The position numbers and the translations under genes are program-made. Shown one piece after another: positions 6,139 through 39,401 of a stretch of 39,401 bases of DNA. The notes beneath the pieces are model-generated. The model saw only the letters and a list, made by a program, of their open reading frames with translations, had not been told where the DNA came from and made no database searches. This DNA is from an uncultured Lachnospiraceae bacterium (GTDB lineage: Bacteria > Bacillota > Clostridia > Lachnospirales > Lachnospiraceae). Every line of letters starts with the position of its first letter. Positions within the stretch are counted from its first letter, which is position 1. The stretch covers positions 1 through 39,401 of the forward strand of contig CACYTU010000023.1 in the NCBI GenBank assembly GCA_902777355.1. The letters are read 5' to 3'.

Positions 6139-6162
6139 CCTGCCGGACTTTTGTCCGGCAGG
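6139..6162 (-). terminator. Hairpin after the amylosucrase-like gene
   Basis: Perfect 10-bp stem CCTGCCGGAC/GTCCGGCAGG with loop TTTT, about 95 bp past the gene's stop. No U-tract follows on either strand, so it may protect or process RNA rather than terminate. Confidence 0.45.
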
Positions 6163-6254
6163 TCGTAAAATCATCACAGGCCGGGATCATCCGCGTCCGC
6201 CGGGATGACTTGTAACCCGGCGCCGTCCGTTCAGGTACTGGTCAGCTGTCCGTT

Positions 6255-8492
6255 TTATGCCTCTGCTTCTCCGTCAGATTCTTCCCCGGGGGGAACAGCT
6301 CCCATGATCGTCGTGATCTTTTCCGGAGGAGCTGCTTTAGCCTCGGCCTCTTTTTCGGCCTTGGTCTTGCGGGTCCGCTTTTTAGGGGCGGGCTTGTCGG
6401 CGTCAGCTCCCTTTGCAGCCGCTTCGGCTTCCTTTTCAGCCTTGGTCTTGCGGGTCCGTTTTTTGGGGGCGGGCTTGTCGGCATCAGCTCCCTTTGCAGC
6501 CGCTTCGGCTTCCTTTTCAGCCTTGGTCTTGCGGGTCCGTTTTTTGGGGGCAGGCTTCTCAGCTTTCGCAGGTGCTGCTTCCTTTTCATCGGAGGACAGC
6601 TTCTCGTTCAGGGTAGGCGCATGTCTTTTGACCATGGGCTTGTTAAATGTAGTCATCAGCCATGCGAAGCCGTAAGGGGGAAGCTCGACGGCCTTGGCGG
6701 CGCGGGGCTCTTCTGTGATCAGGTCGAAATAATCCTCTCTCTCATTTACCCATGCAGTCTGAACACTGTCGCTGAAGTTGAAGAAGGAAAGGAGTTTCTC
6801 ACCGTTGTAGTAGCGGCCGATTGCCAGGATGTGGTCGTTGTAGGGCTCGATGATCCAGGTGTCAGCCTCGTTGTCGAAGACCTCATACTCGGAGCGGATG
6901 GTCTCGAGTGTGCGAAGAGCGGTGAAGAGCCTGCCCTCACGGGTCGATGTATCATGGCGTTTTTTGGCTGCTTCCCAGTCAAAATCTCCGCGGTGCAGAT
7001 AGCGGCTGTCATCCCACTTAAGTTCGTTCTCGTGATAGGTGTAGTCGTTTTTCTGACCGATCTCGTCGCCGCTGTAGAGGACCGGAATTCCGCTCTGGGT
7101 GAAGAGGAAGGCATGGAGCATGATGTCAAGGGTAATGCCCTTGTCCAGCTTATCCTGGTCTCCCTCGTACTCGGCTGCTTCGATTCCGCAGAGGGAAGCG
7201 GTCGTTCCGCACAGACGGGCATCGCCCAGGCGGGGATCGTCATTGTAGAGCTCGCCGCGGGCATCGCTGTTGTAGCCCTTGCCGGTCAGATAATCGTTGA
7301 GATATTTCTTATGAGCGACCTCTTCCATGCCGAACTGCTTGAGGAAATTATAGTCAAGTCCCCAGCCGATATCGTCGTGACAGCGGAGGTAGTTCAGGAA
7401 GGTGTAATCGTGCGGAAGCTCGAAAACCGCCTCCATCTGGTGGCGGAGCAGGCGCACGTCATGGGTCGCGACGGTGTGCCAGGTGCTGGCCATGGTCGTG
7501 ACATTATAGAGCATGTGGCACTCAGGCTTCTCGATAGTTCCGAAATAAGGAACGACCTTGGAGGGCTCCATGACGACTTCGCCCAGAAGCAGGGTGCCGG
7601 GGCATACGACTTCAGATGCCATGCGCATCAGGCGGACAAGTGTGTGGACCTGGGGAAGGTTGCGGCAGTCAGTGCCGAGCTCTTTCCAGATGTAGGGAGT
7701 CGCATCCAGGCGGATGATGTCGACACCGTGATTGCACAGGTTGAGCATGTCTGCGGTCATGTCATTGAAGACGACCGGATTGGCATAGTTCAGATCCCAC
7801 TGATAGGGATAGAAGGTGGTCATGACGACCTTGCCGGCCTCTTCGCACCAGGAAAAGTTTCCGGGAGCGGTCTGCGGGAAGACCTGAGGGACTGTTTTTT
7901 CAAATTCATTGGGAATAGTCCAGTCATCGTAGAAGAAATATCTGTCCTGATATTCCTTTTCGCCGGCGCGGGCGCGCTTTGCCCACTCGTGGTCTTCGCT
8001 GGTGTGGTTCATGACGAAGTCCAGGCAGAGGCACATGCCCTGGCTGTGGCATTCATTGCCGAGGGCGGCGAGGTCTTCCATGGTGCCCAGTTCAGGCTGC
8101 ACCTTGCGGAAATCAGCTACTGCGTATCCTCCGTCACTGCGTCCTGCGGGGCTCTCCAGCAGGGGCATCAGGTGCAGATAATTCAGTCCGCACTCTTTCA
8201 GGTAGTCCAGGTGGTCCTTTACACCCTTCAGCGTTCCCGCGAAGCAGTTGGTGTACATGAGCATGCCCAGCATCTCATTGCCCTTATACCACTCCGGCAC
8301 TTTCTCTCTGGCCTGATCCCACTCTTTCAGAATCGGGCTTCTCTGCGAATAATACTCGTAGAGCATATCGCAGAAATACTCAAAGGCCTGCTGATCATTG
8401 TGATAAAGCTCGGCGTACAGCCATTTGAGCTCATCATAATGTTTTGCCAGGCGCTCAGAAAACTCGGGTTCCCAGTTTTTTCCCTCAAACAT
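6255..8492 (-). CDS. GH13 amylosucrase-like alpha-glucanotransferase/hydrolase with a histone-H1-like tail
   Basis: 745 residues. Residues about 1-640 are a GH13 enzyme of the amylosucrase type: HHTH-like MNHTSEDHEWAKRA, nucleophile IIRLDATPYIWKELG (Asp263), acid/base LLLGEVVMEP (Glu305) and third acid LRCHDDIGWG (Asp373). HDDIGW and IWK..GT.C.NLPQ.H are typical of amylosucrase (GH13_4), which splits sucrose and builds alpha-glucan; sucrose hydrolase or phosphorylase activity is possible. No signal peptide, so cytoplasmic. After residue 640 comes a Lys/Ala/Glu tail of about 100 residues with a 27-residue unit repeated three times. The start has AGGA upstream. The enzyme needs free sucrose, whereas the PTS delivers phosphorylated sugar, so another entry route or substrate is implied. 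Confidence 0.85.
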   Translation of the reverse strand: MFEGKNWEPEFSERLAKHYDELKWLYAELYHNDQQAFEYFCDMLYEYYSQRSPILKEWDQAREKVPEWYKGNEMLGMLMYTNCFAGTLKGVKDHLDYLKECGLNYLHLMPLLESPAGRSDGGYAVADFRKVQPELGTMEDLAALGNECHSQGMCLCLDFVMNHTSEDHEWAKRARAGEKEYQDRYFFYDDWTIPNEFEKTVPQVFPQTAPGNFSWCEEAGKVVMTTFYPYQWDLNYANPVVFNDMTADMLNLCNHGVDIIRLDATPYIWKELGTDCRNLPQVHTLVRLMRMASEVVCPGTLLLGEVVMEPSKVVPYFGTIEKPECHMLYNVTTMASTWHTVATHDVRLLRHQMEAVFELPHDYTFLNYLRCHDDIGWGLDYNFLKQFGMEEVAHKKYLNDYLTGKGYNSDARGELYNDDPRLGDARLCGTTASLCGIEAAEYEGDQDKLDKGITLDIMLHAFLFTQSGIPVLYSGDEIGQKNDYTYHENELKWDDSRYLHRGDFDWEAAKKRHDTSTREGRLFTALRTLETIRSEYEVFDNEADTWIIEPYNDHILAIGRYYNGEKLLSFFNFSDSVQTAWVNEREDYFDLITEEPRAAKAVELPPYGFAWLMTTFNKPMVKRHAPTLNEKLSSDEKEAAPAKAEKPAPKKRTRKTKAEKEAEAAAKGADADKPAPKKRTRKTKAEKEAEAAAKGADADKPAPKKRTRKTKAEKEAEAKAAPPEKITTIMGAVPPGEESDGEAEA
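6340..6582. repeat. 81-bp in-frame tandem repeat, 3 copies
   Basis: Near-identical 81-bp units (6340-6420, 6421-6501, 6502-6582) encode a 27-residue unit with the core KPAPKKRTRKTKAEKEAEA. Lys/Ala/Pro-rich composition resembles histone H1 or bacterial Hc1/AlgP tails. Confidence 0.9.
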
Positions 8493-19805: not shown

Positions 19806-20270
19806 ATGGAATACATCCGGAATTCGCACAGCGTATACCTTCTGACTTATCATATCGTCTTTGTAACGAAATACCGCAGGCCGGTCATCGACGACCGGAT
19901 ATCCGCGTTCCTGAAGGACCATATCTCCTATTTATGCAGCCGCTTTGACGCGGAACTGCTGACGGCGGAAACGGACAGGGACCATATCCATCTCCTGATC
20001 TCCATGCCGCCGAAGCTGGCGCCTGCTGTCCTGATCCGCGTCCTGAAGACCCAGACAGCGAAGGAGATCCATCTCGACCCGGAAATGGACGCGCACGTAA
20101 AGAAATACATCTATGGAAACGCGCCTTTGTGGCAGCCTTCTTATTTCGTGGCGACGACAGGCACGACCGTCATGGAAAAGGTTAAGGAATACATTGATTC
20201 CCAGCAGACAGAGGAGCACAGGCGCAAATATGAAAAAACCGGGAGATACAGTAAAAAAAGGCACCGCTGA
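19806..20270 (+). CDS. tnpA: TnpA Y1 HUH transposase, IS200/IS605 family
   Basis: 154 residues, full length. It cuts and joins single-stranded IS ends. LTYHIVFVTKYRRPV opens the domain; the metal-binding HUH motif is DHIHLL (His60, His62) and the catalytic tyrosine is Tyr129 in VKEYIDSQ. Shine-Dalgarno AGAGGG is six bases before the ATG. The protein looks intact, so the element may still move. The only plus-strand gene I support. Confidence 0.95.
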   Translation: MEYIRNSHSVYLLTYHIVFVTKYRRPVIDDRISAFLKDHISYLCSRFDAELLTAETDRDHIHLLISMPPKLAPAVLIRVLKTQTAKEIHLDPEMDAHVKKYIYGNAPLWQPSYFVATTGTTVMEKVKEYIDSQQTEEHRRKYEKTGRYSKKRHR

Positions 20271-29850: not shown

Positions 29851-32829
29851 CTATTCGGAATATTCCAGTCCCGTTCCCGCCATTCCGGAAATTTCTAAAA
29901 TACGTTCCCGCAGGCCTGTGTAACGCCTTGTGCGCCTGACATTGGCGATCATCCGGTCCACACCGTCTCTGCTGCCAAGGATCACGACACAATTTCTGGC
30001 CCGGGTAACCGCTGTGTACAGCAGATTGCGGTTGAACAGACCCGAAGGTCCTGTCAGGATCGGCAGAATGACCGCCGGATACTCAGACCCTTGCGATTTA
30101 TGCACCGTGATCGCGTAGGCAAGCTCCAGATCCTCCAGCTCTGTGAAAGGATACTCCACTGTCCTTGCGTCGTCAAAACACACTGTCATAGTCGCGCTGC
30201 GCGTGTCGATCTCCTCGATCCTGCCGAAATCACCATTAAAAATACCCATGCCCCGATCGATGGGCATATTGAAATTGCCGCGTTTTTCCCACTCTATATT
30301 GTAATTATTGCGGGTCTGCATGACCTTGTCGCCCTCGCGGAAAACAGTCTCCTGCCGCACATATTCGCGCTTTGAGTCCGCAGGAGGATTGAGAACACTC
30401 TGCAGAACCTCGTTCAGACGGTCAACTCCCAGACTGCCTCTCCTCATGGGAGTCAGGACCTGGATATCCTCCGGCCTGCAGCCGGCGTAGCCGGGAAGCA
30501 TCTCCCGGATCAGCTGCACCGTGTGCTTATAGATCACGGGCGCCTGATCACGCTCAAGGAAAAAGAAATCGCGGCTCTTATTGTCCATAGGCAGAGAATG
30601 CCCTTCCAGAATCCTGTGGGCATTCATGACAATGTCGCTCTCGCTGGCCTGCCTGAACACATGCTGCAGCATGATCGTGTGAAAGGCCCTCGACTCGATC
30701 AGATCCTGCAGGACACAGCCCGGCCCCACACTGGGAAGCTGATTCACATCCCCCACCAGAACCAGGCGGGCTCCCTGAGGCACAGCCTTCAAAAGAGCGT
30801 GAAAAAGGTTCATGTCCACCATGGACATCTCGTCAATGATGATGACATCCGCCTCCAGAGGATTATCCTCCCCCCGCTCGAACCTGTAGTTTCTCTCTTT
30901 TTTATCTCCTCCTCTGCCGCCGGGCGCGGACATATCCTCCCCGTCGAAAAGACCTTCCCTCTCTGTGTCATCCGAGATCGTCCGAATGCCCAGAAGACGA
31001 TGAATGGTCATAGCCGGCTTTCCGGTGGCCTCCGTCATGCGCCTCGCAGCCCTCCCTGTCGGAGCAGCCAGAAGCACATCCAGACCATCCTCTTCGAAAA
31101 AACGGATAATAGTATTGATGGTAGTCGTCTTGCCCGTACCGGGACCGCCCGAAATCATCAGGATCGCGTTTTCCGCCGCCTCCTGAACCGCCTTACGCTG
31201 CAGAGGATCCAGAGTAATCTGCTCCTCCCTTTCCAGAGCGGCGATCTTCTTTTTCATCCTTTCTCCGGCCCCGCGGCCTCCGGAATGCCTGTGAACACTG
31301 ACATCCAGATCCAGCAGCATTCTGGCTATTTCCTGTTCCCTCCGGAAAAATCCGGAAAGATACACCTCGACAGACTCCTGCTCCCTCGCCGGACCGCCGC
31401 CGGCTCTCTGTTCATAATTGCCCGCGGGAACCCCCGGCGCAGAAAAACCCTGCATGGAAAAATCATCTGCAGAAAATCCTTCCGCGGAAAAACCTCTTCC
31501 GGCAGAACCACCTCCGTTTAAGCCTTCCGCAGAACCCCCATCTCCATTTAATCCTTCCGCGGAAAAACCTCCTCCTGAAAAACCATCTCCGTTAAAATCT
31601 TCTGCGGAAAAAGCTTCTGCATCTTCCGTAAACCCTTCCTCAAAATTCCCCTGATCCGCCATCGGACTGCGCCTGTGAAGGATCCGGACCCTTCGCTCAA
31701 CAGCCAGATTCTCAAGCTGGACTGCAATTTCCTCCTCAGAAATACGAAGCAGGGTACAAGTCCTCCGGATCAGCAGTTCCCGGGGCAGAAAACTGTGCCC
31801 CTCACCTGCCGCCTGCGTGAGAATATAGAGCAGGCCACTGCGGATCCTGTATTCCGAATCCGCGCGAATGCCAATCCTGCGGGCAATCTCGTCAGCCGTC
31901 GCAAATCCGATTCCCCGGATATCTTCCGCCAACCGGTAAGGATTGACCTTCATAATCTCATAGAGCTCAATCCCGTAAGCCTGCCAGATCCTCGCCGCGT
32001 GTGCGCTCCCGATTCCGTATTTCTGCAGAAAAATCATGGCATCGCGCAGATCTTTTTTGTCCTCCATCTGCGCCCCGATCTCACGGGCAATACGCATACT
32101 GATTCCCTTGATCTCCGCAAGCTTCTCCGGCTCCTCCTCCATTATCCTGAGCGTATCATCACCAAACCGCCTGACAATCTTTGCCGCCATGGCCTGGCCT
32201 ATTCCCTTGATACTCCCGGCCGCCAGATAGCGGTACATGGCCTGTGCATTCTCCGGCGCAATCACCCTGTAATTCTTCACACGGAGCTGCTCTCCGTAAA
32301 CAGGATGCGTGACATACTCACCCGAAACCGCGCAGCTCTCCCCCTCGCTGATCGAGACAGGATACCCCACACAAGTGATCACATCACCAAACAGATCACC
32401 AGGGTCAACTACAGCCGACTCCCTGGCCTTCTTCCCGAAACCTTCAGCCTTCCCCTTGGAACCACCGGCCTTCCCCTTAGAGCTTTCAGCCTCTCCTTTG
32501 GAAACTTCAGCCTTCCCCTTGGAACCACCGGCCTTCCCCTTAGAGCCTTCACCCTTTCCTTTGGAACCTCCGTCCCTTTTTTGGGAGCCTTCGGCCTTCC
32601 CATCCGATCCTCCCGATTCTCTGTCACCGGAGACCGCTTCGCCCTTTTTTCCTTTAGGTCCTCCGTGATTTCCATCCGATTCTCTCGATCCCCAGTCACC
32701 AGAGACTGCTTCGGCCCCATCAAGGGCCTGATCATGTCCCACATCCGTGAGAGTCACTTCAAAAACAGTGTATCCACTCTCCTCACTGCGATAAATGATA
32801 TGAGAAACAAAGCCCTTAAAATCAGCCAT
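29851..32829 (-). CDS. recD2: RecD2 DNA helicase with two low-complexity inserts
   Basis: 992 residues against about 750-800 usual. A 5'-3' SF1B helicase in repair, acting without RecBC. The N-terminal OB domain and tandem helix-hairpin-helix segments (GSIKGIGQAMAAKIV, DIRGIGFATADEIARRIG) precede the motor: Walker A ISGGPGTGKTTTINTI, Walker B VIIIDEMSMVDM, motif IV region QVLTPMRRGSLGVDRLN and motif VI TVHKSQGSEYPAVILP. Insert 1 (about residues 35-145) is Gly/Ser/Lys-rich SKGKAEG repeats within the OB domain. Insert 2 (about 390-480) is Phe/Ser/Gly-rich FSAEGFNGDG repeats before the helicase core. I start at MADFKGFV, the conserved beginning; an ATG 24 bases upstream is open too. Confidence 0.94.
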   Translation of the reverse strand: MADFKGFVSHIIYRSEESGYTVFEVTLTDVGHDQALDGAEAVSGDWGSRESDGNHGGPKGKKGEAVSGDRESGGSDGKAEGSQKRDGGSKGKGEGSKGKAGGSKGKAEVSKGEAESSKGKAGGSKGKAEGFGKKARESAVVDPGDLFGDVITCVGYPVSISEGESCAVSGEYVTHPVYGEQLRVKNYRVIAPENAQAMYRYLAAGSIKGIGQAMAAKIVRRFGDDTLRIMEEEPEKLAEIKGISMRIAREIGAQMEDKKDLRDAMIFLQKYGIGSAHAARIWQAYGIELYEIMKVNPYRLAEDIRGIGFATADEIARRIGIRADSEYRIRSGLLYILTQAAGEGHSFLPRELLIRRTCTLLRISEEEIAVQLENLAVERRVRILHRRSPMADQGNFEEGFTEDAEAFSAEDFNGDGFSGGGFSAEGLNGDGGSAEGLNGGGSAGRGFSAEGFSADDFSMQGFSAPGVPAGNYEQRAGGGPAREQESVEVYLSGFFRREQEIARMLLDLDVSVHRHSGGRGAGERMKKKIAALEREEQITLDPLQRKAVQEAAENAILMISGGPGTGKTTTINTIIRFFEEDGLDVLLAAPTGRAARRMTEATGKPAMTIHRLLGIRTISDDTEREGLFDGEDMSAPGGRGGDKKERNYRFERGEDNPLEADVIIIDEMSMVDMNLFHALLKAVPQGARLVLVGDVNQLPSVGPGCVLQDLIESRAFHTIMLQHVFRQASESDIVMNAHRILEGHSLPMDNKSRDFFFLERDQAPVIYKHTVQLIREMLPGYAGCRPEDIQVLTPMRRGSLGVDRLNEVLQSVLNPPADSKREYVRQETVFREGDKVMQTRNNYNIEWEKRGNFNMPIDRGMGIFNGDFGRIEEIDTRSATMTVCFDDARTVEYPFTELEDLELAYAITVHKSQGSEYPAVILPILTGPSGLFNRNLLYTAVTRARNCVVILGSRDGVDRMIANVRRTRRYTGLRERILEISGMAGTGLEYSE
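31386..31664. repeat. In-frame repeats, recD2 insert 2
   Basis: Repeats of 15 and 30 bp such as CCTTCCGCGGAAAAACCT and CCATCTCCRTTTAA, encoding FSAEG/LNGDG/GGFSAEG. Frame is kept. Confidence 0.85.
32430..32690. repeat. In-frame repeats, recD2 insert 1
   Basis: 21-bp units of the type CCTTGGAACCACCGGCCTTCC, many copies, encoding GSKGKAG/SKGKAE heptads; followed upstream by a longer duplicated stretch around VSGDRESGGSDG and VSGDWGSRESDG. Confidence 0.9.
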
Positions 32830-33070
32830 CACCCGTCCCTGTGCTCCATCCATTCCTTCTGACTCAACTCAGAATAACCGTCCACTACCCATTCCTTTTA
32901 AGACAGCTTTTGAGAAGGCTTTTGAAACAACTCAAGATAACCGTCCAACACTAATCGACGCATTACCCGTCTGCCATGTTACAAAATACCCAGCCTGCCA
33001 AACCGCCCCGCAGAGAACCCTCACCCGGCGAAAATACCAGGGTGCATTAAAAAAACCGCTCAAAAACTCT

Positions 33071-33206
33071 TCGCCTATGCTTCGCATGAGGTATTGTCCT
33101 GCCTTCGCCAATGCTTCGCATGAGGTATTGTCCTGCCCTCGCCAATGCTTCGCACGGGGTACTGTCTCGCCTTCACCCATGCGAAGCATGAGGTCTTCAC
33201 TCATGC
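33071..33206. repeat. 34-bp tandem repeat, four units, last with an inverted core
   Basis: Units start at 33071, 33105, 33139 and 33173. Copies 1-3 carry ATGCTTCGCA-(T/C); copy 4 carries ATGCGAAGCAT, the reverse complement, with the same flanks. The preceding 32830-33070 stretch shows nothing I can support; a 166-codon minus-strand frame over 32932-33432 is made of these repeats. Confidence 0.9.
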
Positions 33207-33248
33207 ACCGCATAGGTGCATGGGTATGCGAAAATTCCAAATTTTCGC
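33202..33248. repeat. Two adjacent perfect hairpins
   Basis: CATGCACC-GCATA-GGTGCATG (33202-33222) and GCGAAAATT-CCA-AATTTTCGC (33228-33248). The second shares stem and loop words with the hairpin at 27681-27735. TTTATTTT follows on the plus strand, so it could terminate plus-strand RNA. Confidence 0.75.
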
Positions 33249-33271
33249 GCTTTATTTTCCCCACTTTGCCG

Positions 33272-33545
33272 GCGGAGCGGAAGTCCGGGCCGGAGCGGGA
33301 CATCATCCTGGCGGACAGAATGCGATGAGCGCTGCATGTACTTGGCGAAGTATCTGTGGAAGGCGGGTCATTTTCCCGTCTCTCACAGACGGGAAAATGT
33401 CGTCCGCATGTCTGAGCATTTCGTTTCTTCAAAACGAAATGCGAGTTTCGGACGTTGCCCGCCCGAAACAGATACGAGCCTTAGTACATGCGCGCGAAGA
33501 GGTCTTCTGTCCAAAGGATGAGTCCCGCGAAGGCCCGCCCTCCGC
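33272..33545 (+). ncRNA. Candidate structured RNA: long nested stem with a three-way junction
   Basis: Nested pairs, outer to inner: GCGGAG 33272/CTCCGC 33540; CGGGCC 33286/GGCCCG 33532; GCGGGAC 33295/GTCCCGC 33522; CATCCT 33304/AGGATG 33515; GGACAGAA 33313/TTCTGTCC 33505; GCGC 33329/GCGC 33492; GCATGTACT 33334/AGTACATGC 33483; GTATCTGT 33350/ACAGATAC 33468; GGCGGG 33362/CCCGCC 33458. The junction then holds hairpin 1 (CATTTTCCCGTCT 33369 with AGACGGGAAAATG 33387) and stem CGTCCG 33401/CGGACG 33449 topped by hairpin 2 (GCATTTCGTTT 33416 with AAACGAAATGC 33432). Several internal loops are purine-rich in the plus sense (GGA/GAA, GA/GA, GGAA/CGAA), hence the plus-strand call. No promoter or family is recognised. 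Confidence 0.6.
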
Positions 33546-33557
33546 ACGACAACCTTC

Positions 33558-36524
33558 TTATTTTTTCAACATCTTATTCACATAATACCCCGTATAGGAA
33601 TCATGCCTCTCCGCGATCTCCTCCGGTGTCCCGCAGGCGACCACGGTTCCGCCTCCGTCCCCGCCCTCAGGGCCCATGTCGATGATGTAATCGGCAGTCT
33701 TGATGACGTCCAGGTTGTGCTCGATGACCACAGCCGTATTGCCGCCCTCCACCAGCTCGCGGAGGATCTTCGTCAGCTTGGCGACATCGTCAAAATGCAG
33801 GCCGGTCGTGGGCTCATCGAGGATATAGATGGTCTTTCCGGTGCTCTTTCTGGACAGCTCTGTCGCCAGCTTAATCCTCTGCGCCTCGCCGCCCGAGAGC
33901 TCTGTGGAAGGCTGTCCGAGCTTGATATAGCCCAGTCCGACATCGTAGAGGGTCTGGATCTTGCGCCGGATGCTGGGTATATTTTCAAAAAATACCACCG
34001 CCTCCTCAACGGTCATTTCCAGAACGTCAGAGATATTTTTCCCTTTATAGCGGACCTCGAGCGTCTCACGGTTGTAGCGCTTTCCGTGGCAAACTTCGCA
34101 GGGCACATATACATCGGGAAGGAAATGCATCTCGATCTTGATGATACCGTCGCCCGAGCAGGCTTCACAGCGTCCGCCCTTCACGTTGAAGGAAAAGCGT
34201 CCCTTGGCGTAGCCGCGGGCGCGGGCGTCCTGGGTCCCCGCGAAAAGGGTTCTGATCAGGTCAAAGACGCCGGTGTAAGTCGCGGGATTGGAGCGGGGTG
34301 TCCGCCCGATCGGGGACTGGTCTATGTTGATAACCTTGTCCAGCTGGTCGATCCCCTCGATATCGTCGTGCTGTCCGGGAATGGTGCGCGCCCGGTTCAG
34401 GTCGCGGGCCAGCCTCTTGTACAGGATTTCATTGACCAGGGAACTCTTGCCGGAACCGGATACGCCGGTGACGACCGTGAGAACGCCTGTGGGAATATCC
34501 ACATCGATATGCTTGAGGTTGTTGACCTCGGCGCCCCGTATATGGAGCCAGCCGGTGGGTGTGCGGCGCTCCGCAGGGACGGGGATGGATTTTTTCCCGC
34601 TCAGATACTGTCCGGTAATAGATTCCGGAACCGCCATAATCTCCTCGGCCGTTCCGCAGGCGACGATCTCTCCGCCGTTGGAGCCGGCGCCGGGACCTAT
34701 GTCCACGATATAGTCAGCGGCACGCATGGTATCCTCGTCGTGTTCGACCACGATCACGGTGTTCCACAGGTCGCGCAGATTTTTGAGGGTGTGCAGAAGT
34801 TTGTCATTGTCCCTCTGGTGCAGGCCTATGCTGGGCTCGTCCAGGATATAGCACACGCCGACCAGGCCGGAACCGATCTGGGTAGCCAGGCGGATCCGCT
34901 GGGCCTCTCCGCCGGAGAGGGTCGCGGTCGCGCGGGCCAGAGTCAGATAGTCCAGGCCGACATCATTGAGGAAGCGGACGCGGGCGCGGATCTCCTTGAG
35001 CACCTGCTTTCCGATCATTTCCTGTGTCTTTGTGAGCTGCAGATTCTCCATGAAGGTCTGCAGTTTTTTTACAGACATGCATGTCAGATCATAAATATTG
35101 ATATCTCCCACGGTGACCGCCAGGGACTCCTTTTTCAGGCGCTTTCCGCCGCAGGTCTCGCAGGGCGTGATCTGCATGAAGGTCTCGTACTCCGCTCGGG
35201 AACTCTCGGAGGCCGTCTCTCGGTAGCGGCGGCGGGTGTTTTCCAGAATGCCCTCGAAGACGACAGGGTAGATTCCCTTGCCGCGCTGTCCCTCGTAGTG
35301 GACGTCCACGCTGCGGTCGGCCCCGTACATGAGCATATGACGGATATTTTCGGGCAGCTCCCGCCAGGGGGTCGACATGTCAAAGCCGTACTCCCTGCTG
35401 AGGGCGACCAGAATGGCATTGGCAAAGCTGCCCTTGTTCATACAGGACTGCCAGCCCAGGACGGCGATGGCTCCGCCGTTGATCGAGAGGCGGTCGTCCG
35501 GCACCAGCAGGCGGGGATCAAATTCCATGCGGTAGCCCAGACCTGCGCAGTCGGGGCATGCGCCGAAGGGATTGTTGAAGGAAAAGCTGCGGGGCTCGAT
35601 CTCCTGTACACTGATCCCGCAGTCGGGGCAGGCAAAACTCTGGCTGAACTGCAAAAGCTCACCGCCCACAACGTCTGCCTGAGCCAGTCCGTCGGAGAGG
35701 GCGAGGGCGTTCTCCAGGGAATCCGTCATGCGGCGCTCAGTGCCGGGGCGGATGACCAGACGGTCAACCACGATCTCTATATTGTGCTTGATATTTTTGT
35801 CCAGCGTAATGTCCTCGGAGACATCATACATATTTCCGTCGACACGCAGGCGGACATAACCGGCCCTCCTGGCCCGGTCGATGACCTTTTCGTGCCGGCC
35901 CTTGCGCCCGCGGACGACCGGAGCCAACAGCTGGACCCGGGTGCCCTCCGGCAGTTCCATCAGGCGGTCCACCATCTGGTCGACTGTCTGCTTGGCGATC
36001 TCACGTCCGCAGTTGGGGCAGTGGGGGGTACCGATCCTGGCGTAGAGGAGCCTGAAATAGTCGTAGATCTCCGTCACTGTACCCACCGTGGAACGGGGAT
36101 TGCGGTTGGTGGATTTCTGGTCGATGGAGATGGCGGGCGAGAGTCCCTCTATGTTCTCGACATCCGGCTTCTCCATCTGGCCCAGGAACTGTCGCGCGTA
36201 AGAGGACAGCGACTCCATGTAGCGCCGCTGCCCTTCCGCGTAGATCGTATCGAATGCCAGTGAGGATTTGCCCGAGCCCGACAGGCCGGTCAGGACGACC
36301 AGCTGATTGCGGGGGATGGACAGACTGATTCCCTTGAGGTTGTGCTCGTTGGCTCCCCTGATCTTGATGCAGTCCTCCGCGTAAATCTGCTTGCGGCGCT
36401 CCGCATCGATCTCCTGCTGAGCCAGTGCCTTCTTTTCATTTTCCACAAGTGCAGGCCAGTAGTCCCGCTTCCGCATTTTTGCGGCCTTGCCCGCAGCTGC
36501 TGACGAATCCGTATTATTTGCCAT
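33558..36524 (-). CDS. uvrA: Excinuclease ABC subunit UvrA
   Basis: 988 residues. It finds bulky DNA damage with UvrB and loads it. Two ABC ATPase halves: Walker [16 protein letters not shown] and [15 protein letters not shown]; signatures [16 protein letters not shown] and [15 protein letters not shown]; Walker [16 protein letters not shown] and [14 protein letters not shown]. Zinc modules include CPNCG, CPDCG ... CPDCAG and CEACSGDG ... CEVCHGKRY. The N-terminus is about 50 residues longer than usual, charged and Ala-rich. I start at the ATG at 36524 with AAAGGA nine bases upstream. It follows uvrB by about 200 bp on the same strand, the common order. The gap 36525-36726 shows a GC-rich inverted repeat (CCCCGG/CCGGGG, near 36625) without a U-tract. 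Confidence 0.97.
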
Positions 36525-36726
36525 GTATTTCATCCTTTAAAGTAAAAATATTTTTCTTTCTCTGTCTCTGAATTCTTTATATTATTTCCCTTTTGCGCAA
36601 TAAGTCACCCGGATTCTTTCCCCGGGATCCTTTCCGGGGATTCTGCTTTCTGTTTCTTTTGTCCGTTATTCAGCCCTGCGGGTCCTTTAAGGCAGGCTCA
36701 TTTTGTGCGCTGCACTGTCCGCAGGC

Positions 36727-39121: not shown

Positions 39122-39401
39122 CCTGTCTCTTTAATTATTCGATTTTCCCTGTCGCTCAGGTCTTTTTCCTGTCACATCAGCATAGTCAGGTTTATGGCTA
39201 TGACTGCGTGTTCACAAACATGTTTGATTAAAGCTACTCGCTGCTTTAGTTTATTAAATGATTAAAGCCCGCGCTGCTTTGCGCGTACCGCGCTCTCGCA
39301 TCGCTCCACACATTCGCATTCCCGGTCTTTTTGCTCATTCTTCGCAAAAATCCCTTCATGCTCATGTGTGTGCGCTCGGAAAATGTCCGCAAATGCCCGA
39401 G
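39122..39401. other. Gene-free end of the window with repeats
   Basis: No coding sequence supported. CAAACATGTTTG (39215-39226) is a perfect palindrome. GATTAAAGC..CGCTGCTTT occurs at 39226 and 39260, a 34-bp period. The rest is GC-skewed sequence with GCGCG and TCGCA words, like the other repeat-rich spacers. Confidence 0.5.

Follow-up and report, generated by a model that had tools for sequence, protein, structure and literature searches.

What is the elaborately folding segment that lies between recD2 and uvrA in the genome of an uncultured Lachnospiraceae bacterium? The window that we have analysed (i.e. the whole stretch of 39,401 nt) carries recD2 at 29851–32853 and uvrA at 33558–36533, both on the minus strand (NCBIfam RecD2 and UvrA equivalogs, 814.2 and 1543.5 bits respectively), and the 3′ end of uvrA abuts the segment. 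We think that the segment may well be one arm of a non-autonomous mobile element that is read as folded single-stranded DNA.

The plus strand of 33261–33552 folds into a rod ending in a three-way junction (z −11.65). The folding energy of 33252–33565 is −166.9 kcal/mol for the plus strand and −165.7 kcal/mol for the minus strand, and none of 100 dinucleotide shuffles reached it on either, in agreement with an earlier note that had thought chance an unlikely source of the fold. The rod contains all nine of the nested, ordered segments of 4–9 bp described there, i.e. 33272–33277/33540–33545, 33286–33291/33532–33537, 33295–33301/33522–33528, 33303–33309/33515–33521, 33313–33320/33505–33512, 33329–33332/33492–33495, 33334–33342/33483–33491, 33350–33357/33468–33475 and 33362–33368/33457–33463, all on the plus strand. 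Besides these the rod contains five pieces of 2–3 bp, and the arm one more.

The 13-bp hairpin and the 6+11-bp arm of the earlier description are both present at the junction on the plus strand. The hairpin H1 (33369–33399) is a perfect inverted repeat (33369–33381/33387–33399) closed by the loop CTCAC, and its pairs covary. The H2 arm (33401–33454) has a lower stem of 6 bp (33401–33406/33449–33454), a conserved internal loop and an upper stem of 11 bp (33416–33426/33432–33442), all 11 pairs of which show two-sided changes among copies. The internal loop is formed by TGTCTGAG (33409–33416) on its 5′ side and CGAGTT (33442–33447) on its 3′ side, both near-invariant in 32 diverse copies. The loops GGA/GAA, GA and GGAA/CGAA that had drawn attention to this locus were all located in the plus-strand fold. 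The GGA of the outer purine loop (33292–33294) faces GAA (33529–33531), the GGAA at 33358–33361 lies opposite the CGAA at 33464–33467 as a purine loop in the rod, and the GA mismatch adjoins the 11-bp stem of H2.

The structure had earlier been matched to no known family. Searches of Rfam 15 at the gathering threshold likewise placed no family on the arm in the window or in 12 further loci, and permissive searches returned sub-threshold matches only, including weak ones of microRNA type on the hairpins. No description of the element was found in the literature searched, which consisted mostly of listings with the beginnings of abstracts.

The segment is repeated. DNA similarity revealed more copies in its own genome, and copies in 7 of the 61 genomes of the set of relatives (its own included), all of one genus. 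An alignment of 17 copies made with MAFFT (A1) provided a covariance model, R1, which bounds the arm in the window (arm E of a dispersed element) at 33261–33552 on the plus strand (282.4 bits, E 3.8e-79 in its own genome). The search for further copies in the same genome, proposed in the earlier note, gave nine R1 matches, comprising seven distinct copies, an opposite-strand shadow and a fragment on an existing copy; an eighth, incomplete copy lies at a contig end (L075 1–142). Within the genus R1 matched 30 of 61 genomes including the window's own, with at least 29 matches in one genome, at most 30 candidates having been scored per genome. Among 295 genomes of the order (about six candidates scored in each) only the window's own gave a match and the 294 others gave none, and 39 other genomes of the family yielded a single weak match of 22.8 bits. 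The weak match L353 (G133:C36:23117-23383), in another genus of the family, is a long palindrome with two hairpins at its tip and is without the conserved loop. A pattern scan of named genomes gave confirmed copies mostly in Lachnospiraceae metagenome-assembled genomes (MAGs), many of ruminant origin according to their records, and a few under Ruminococcaceae, Clostridia or Eubacteriales labels. The window copy matched nothing among plasmids and phages. A viral origin was considered and rejected, as none of 23 pattern matches in viral contigs was upheld by the covariance model. From 68 sequence sources we obtained 111 matches, of which 91 are distinct copies; the rest were one duplicate and 19 matches that were fragments or opposite-strand shadows. 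The folded arms therefore belong to a dispersed family of mobile elements, previously undescribed within the literature searched.

The uvrA–recD2 site itself is polymorphic for the insertion. We applied R1 to 30 congeneric uvrA loci and found arms in two of them, a single one in the window genome and a pair in a related species (G028). The gene recD2 adjoins uvrA in 25 of the 30 genomes viewed, its start motif being recognised at 25 loci, and that motif lies 740 and 912 nt from the uvrA stop in the two genomes with arms, against 4–188 nt in the other 23. The location between the two genes would suit a cis-regulator of uvrA or recD2. Yet 28 of the 30 uvrA loci are without a match and other copies adjoin unrelated genes, so that we regard this role as highly improbable. 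As a general role it is refuted, and the earlier suggestion of a regulator at the uvrA 3′ end is unsupported for that reason; there may be local polar effects. The spacers of two other genomes (G009 and G079) contain, by eye, short stretches like the ends of the element, which may be deletion scars. In the window a candidate remnant of a lost opposite arm was seen at 33123–33221 on the minus strand; at 4.3 bits (E 0.2, filters off) it is perhaps due to chance and is not convincing. We note that in the spacer on the recD2 side of the arm, in the place expected for a second arm, there are 34-nt direct repeats (ATGCTTCGCATGAGGTATTGTCC...) at 33067–33198.

Base pairing in the arm is under selection. 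In the 17-copy alignment A1, 54 of the 67 predicted pairs have double changes that keep the pair, and among 32 diverse copies 66 of 67 vary on both sides; the check for covariation among homologues thus bears out the predicted fold. In the 32-copy alignment 91.6% of cells are paired, compared with 36–41.5% when the partners are slid, and none of 500 shuffles matched any of five measures of pairing. Having been fitted to the model, the 32-copy alignment is biased toward it; the MAFFT alignment A1 agrees.

The mismatches distinguish the strands. A total of 88 copies were folded with G-U pairs forbidden, the rows dropped from the 111 being the shadows, a duplicate, two short copies and one of low score. 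Single mismatches on the plus strand were GT+TG in 93 cases against 42 for AC+CA, GA+AG in 92 against 32 for CT+TC, and GG in 62 against 2 for CC. Symmetric loops of 2–4 nt contained 505 G-A oppositions and 16 C-T in the plus-strand fold, and the minus-strand fold gave the complementary picture, with 335 C-T and 31 G-A. The purine loops under selection belong to the plus strand. Many decayed copies with random mismatches, the mark by which the earlier note would have recognised a simple palindromic repeat, were absent, the mismatches in the 88 copies being mainly purine–purine on the plus strand.

Is this strand selected as RNA or as DNA? We applied the same pipeline of MAFFT and RNAalifold to the arms and, as the sole RNA control, to the RNase P RNAs of the genus; of 30 loci fetched for these, 25 were used and five were excluded by hand. 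In RNase P, 14.3% of pairs are G-U and 0.6% A-C, and the ratio of one-sided to two-sided changes is 0.73. The corresponding values are 2.5%, 1.2% and 0.10 for subfamily A of the arms (22 non-redundant copies), 5.4%, 2.0% and 0.29 for subfamily C (13 copies) and 5.7%, 1.4% and 0.31 for subfamily B (11 copies). Arm G-U pairs are therefore 2.5 to 5.7 times rarer than those of the one control, and the tolerance of G-U expected of a known RNA is not seen; the control is less diverged (mean identity 0.76, against 0.58–0.63 by subfamily for the arms), and greater divergence alone raises the number of two-sided changes. On the minus strand of subfamily A RNAalifold gave 2.3% G-U and 1.4% A-C. These shares are nearly equal to those of the plus strand, so the pipeline has no strand preference, and the strand was assigned from the types of mismatch in the 88 copies and not from the RNAalifold shares.

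The scarcity of G-U pairs leads us to read the fold mainly as DNA. A strong preference for Watson–Crick pairs, together with G-A loops on one strand, favours a folded single strand of DNA, and on these comparisons of sequence, single-stranded DNA seems to be the form in which the arms are selected, more so than RNA. The earlier proposal of a plus-strand RNA stands as regards the strand, which the purine loops support; the RNA part fits poorly with the few G-U pairs and the rarity of one-sided changes relative to RNase P. Low G-U content, frequent two-sided change and near-equal G-U and A-C shares on the two strands would also be expected of a plain palindromic repeat in double-stranded DNA, whose symmetry was kept by template switching and whose fold was not selected. 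Template-switch correction of palindromes could partly explain the low G-U content, though it would tend to erase the G-A loops. Those loops are conserved across diverged subfamilies, and the mismatches in symmetric loops are purine–purine on one strand, so this explanation is disfavoured by the strand-specific counts and we consider it very unlikely.

Alternatively, mobile DNA could carry a structured noncoding RNA, either selfish or of use to the host, which would be transcribed outward from the middle of each unit and whose conserved UGUCUGAG/CGAGUU loop would bind a protein. The covarying pairs, the strand-specific G-A loops, the conservation of unpaired nucleotides and a core common to a Spirochaetes genome (see below) are all consistent with this. 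The G-U content and ratio of changes given above argue against it, with the reservation that they are set against a single, less diverged control, as does the fixed orientation of the arm relative to its partner arm. We consider such an RNA possible, and a less probable answer than folded DNA.

This orientation is strict. Wherever neighbouring copies lie less than 1.5 kb apart (23 of 23 cases) they are head to head in the order minus then plus, with their 3′ ends outward and therefore their 5′ ends facing inward. Of these regions 16 had been fetched since a pair was visible beforehand, orientation being no criterion, and the seven found later agree. A further head-to-head pair is present in L192. 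The middle sequence between paired arms is 45–846 bp, and one pair overlaps by 46 nt. Numerous copies appear single; the search for partners with filters off covered the window.

In one subfamily the units consist of two different arm types and have the ends AAATACGGGTTTG...CAAACCCGTATTT, imperfect in places. Whole units of this subfamily occur at different loci in three genomes (G010, G026 and G076), where they end in perfect or near-perfect 13-bp inverted repeats, i.e. terminal inverted repeats of the type found in miniature inverted-repeat transposable elements (MITEs); the unit in G000 is interrupted by a contig end. Among the units listed, middles are common to L064 and L065, and to L060, L061 and L079. 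The outer ends differ between subfamilies, and convincing inverted ends are found in some units only, others having no clear ends. Judged from the flanks, there are two sites (L064/L159 and L103/L079) at each of which two species carry a unit in opposite orientations, perhaps as a result of inversion or of repeated targeting. In L159 (G008:C37 near 6144-6471) the lower H2 stem carries, by eye, an inserted extra sequence. The outer end of the arm is tandemly duplicated in L002/L118 and L063, with for example CCGCGAAGGCTCGTCC three times. Inspection by eye of several units and loci revealed no clear target-site duplication. The dispersed copies, head-to-head pairs, units at several loci and occupation of 2 of 30 uvrA sites accord with a mobile structured element, which had been one of the options offered at the outset.

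No mobilising enzyme was found together with the arms. An autonomous copy was sought through the end motif; 7 of 10 genomes together had 12 matches to it, and its reversed control had none. Six of these have an arm by R1, one (L154) is by eye an internally deleted unit, and five are without an arm and may be due to chance (one of the five, L158, has a chance-level match of 8 bits). Nor is there a recurrent neighbouring gene: the 117 ORFs next to copies are diverse, with no more than five homologous pairs. The element might instead be of REPIN type, moved by the RAYT transposases of the same genomes. The arms do form inverted pairs, and RAYT-type Y1 genes (defined as ORFs of ≥200 aa and <62 bits) are commoner in carriers (19 of 30) than in non-carriers (7 of 31). 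In three genomes (G001, G065 and G082) some copies are flanked by a motif of CACACAGAGAACCGTCCC type or its relatives, which also flank RAYT genes. However, none of 20 RAYT loci examined contains an arm, and these loci have short repeats of their own; the window genome (84% complete) has Y1 genes of IS200 type only; and the arms are ~290 nt long and not 20–40 bp. RAYT was consequently set aside as a partner, and we judge movement by it to be unlikely. The short repeats that flank the RAYT genes of L130–L149 include, among those listed, the GGGACGGTTCT and ACCCCAGAGGTCG types. The window itself encodes an IS200/IS605 family transposase TnpA at 19806–20270 on the plus strand (NCBIfam NF033573, 121.6 bits).

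Returning to folded DNA as the reading that we favour, the whole unit would consist of two arms placed head to head around a middle sequence with their 3′ ends outward, MITE- or REPIN-like in outline. During a single-stranded phase, in replication or transfer, the 3′-outward strand of each arm would fold into a T-shaped hairpin. This would be recognised by an enzyme supplied in trans, and the unit would then be excised, or copied into another intergenic site. In the window genome a unit would have entered the uvrA–recD2 spacer, where one arm remains, both being kept in the related species G028.

Signs of the arm extend to another phylum. Two of the pattern matches outside Lachnospiraceae-like records pass a loose hairpin criterion. 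One, in a Spirochaetes MAG (L193), is paired at 7 of its 8 outer positions and scores 15.2 bits with R1 (E 0.0096); the other, in an Acidobacteria MAG (L224), is paired at 5 of 8 and has no R1 match. The Spirochaetes genome contains seven exact TGTCTGAG-N24-CGAGTT motifs (control 0), the seven having been chosen by that pattern itself. They have five distinct stems, mostly good and some imperfect, and in their alignment H1 precedes the H2 arm, the same order as in Lachnospiraceae. The outer rod is not evident in these copies. A model of the core (R2), built from Lachnospiraceae arms only, was run on 64 sources. Its top ranks went to three of the seven Spirochaetes places with E of 0.003–0.012 (one place appearing twice, as L357 and L193); L355, with an E of 1.9, was outranked by two unrelated sources, and there was no match in L356, L358 and L359. 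A profile of the Spirochaetes copies detected an inverted partner to the left of the plus copy in L193 (E 8e-16), again head to head, and a weak candidate in L355 (E 0.09). By eye, the Spirochaetes copies in L355, L357, L359 and L360 have another palindromic repeat upstream of them, with the sequence GTCGCCGGGCACGAGGCCCGGCG... or one related to it.

How does the element compare with known systems? REPINs, or REP sequences with RAYTs (PMC3116915, PMC3733652 and PMC8266576), are dispersed non-coding palindromes in inverted pairs that are believed to be moved in trans. The arms too are dispersed non-coding palindromes in inverted pairs, all close pairs being head to head. They differ from REP sequences of 20–40 bp in their length of ~290 nt, their three-way junction and their conserved purine loops, and in that the 20 RAYT genes have no arm beside them and are not flanked by the same repeat. 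REP elements carry a foot of GTAG type.

The bcr1 element of the Bacillus cereus group is short, non-coding, multicopy and mobile, and has a stable fold. Our element shares these properties with bcr1 and with bacterial MITEs, and differs from them in having two large folded arms placed head to head, and in that neither a transposase relative nor, by eye, a clear target duplication was found for it. It can be seen as a new variation on a MITE/REPIN-like theme, behind which there is possibly a wider class. What it adds is a dispersed repeat whose complex fold, mismatches included, is under selection in head-to-head pairs. The combination of scarce G-U pairs with purine loops specific to one strand is, we suggest, a sequence test that distinguishes folded DNA from folded RNA.

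In inverted terminal repeats of parvovirus type both ends carry a T-shaped hairpin, the two being in inverted orientation with their 3′ ends outward, and there is a purine bubble. The arms are likewise T-shaped and inverted, with 3′ ends outward and a purine bubble. This is a resemblance only, and the element differs in that no replication protein or viral context was found for it.

A further parallel is Clostridiales-1 (RF01699 in Rfam), which is named in a table of PMC2864571. It too has many copies in the genus (the window's own genome gave 31 matches and G014 45, and 24 of 41 genomes contain it), is equally poor in G-U pairs (2.3%, with 1.8% A-C, a ratio of changes of 0.05 and an identity of 0.48) and is, by eye, rich in G-A at its junctions. 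It differs in its length of ~166 nt and in the arrangement of its neighbouring pairs less than 400 nt apart, of which, among the matches listed, six of seven are direct and one head to head. RF01699 gave no match on the arm in the window, and R1 found no arm in 20 Clostridiales-1 loci. The one RF01699 match in the window lies at 39263–39401 on the minus strand. The element also raises the question of whether other multicopy 'RNA' families, Clostridiales-1 for example, are really mobile structures at the level of DNA. We would go further only tentatively, in the suspicion that there could be a wide new class of bacterial mobile elements with large folded single-stranded DNA ends. Such elements would follow a logic like that of the parvovirus terminal repeats, being recognised through the TGTCTGAG/CGAGTT bulge common to Lachnospiraceae and Spirochaetes and moved by a host-encoded enzyme, and Clostridiales-1 may be another branch.
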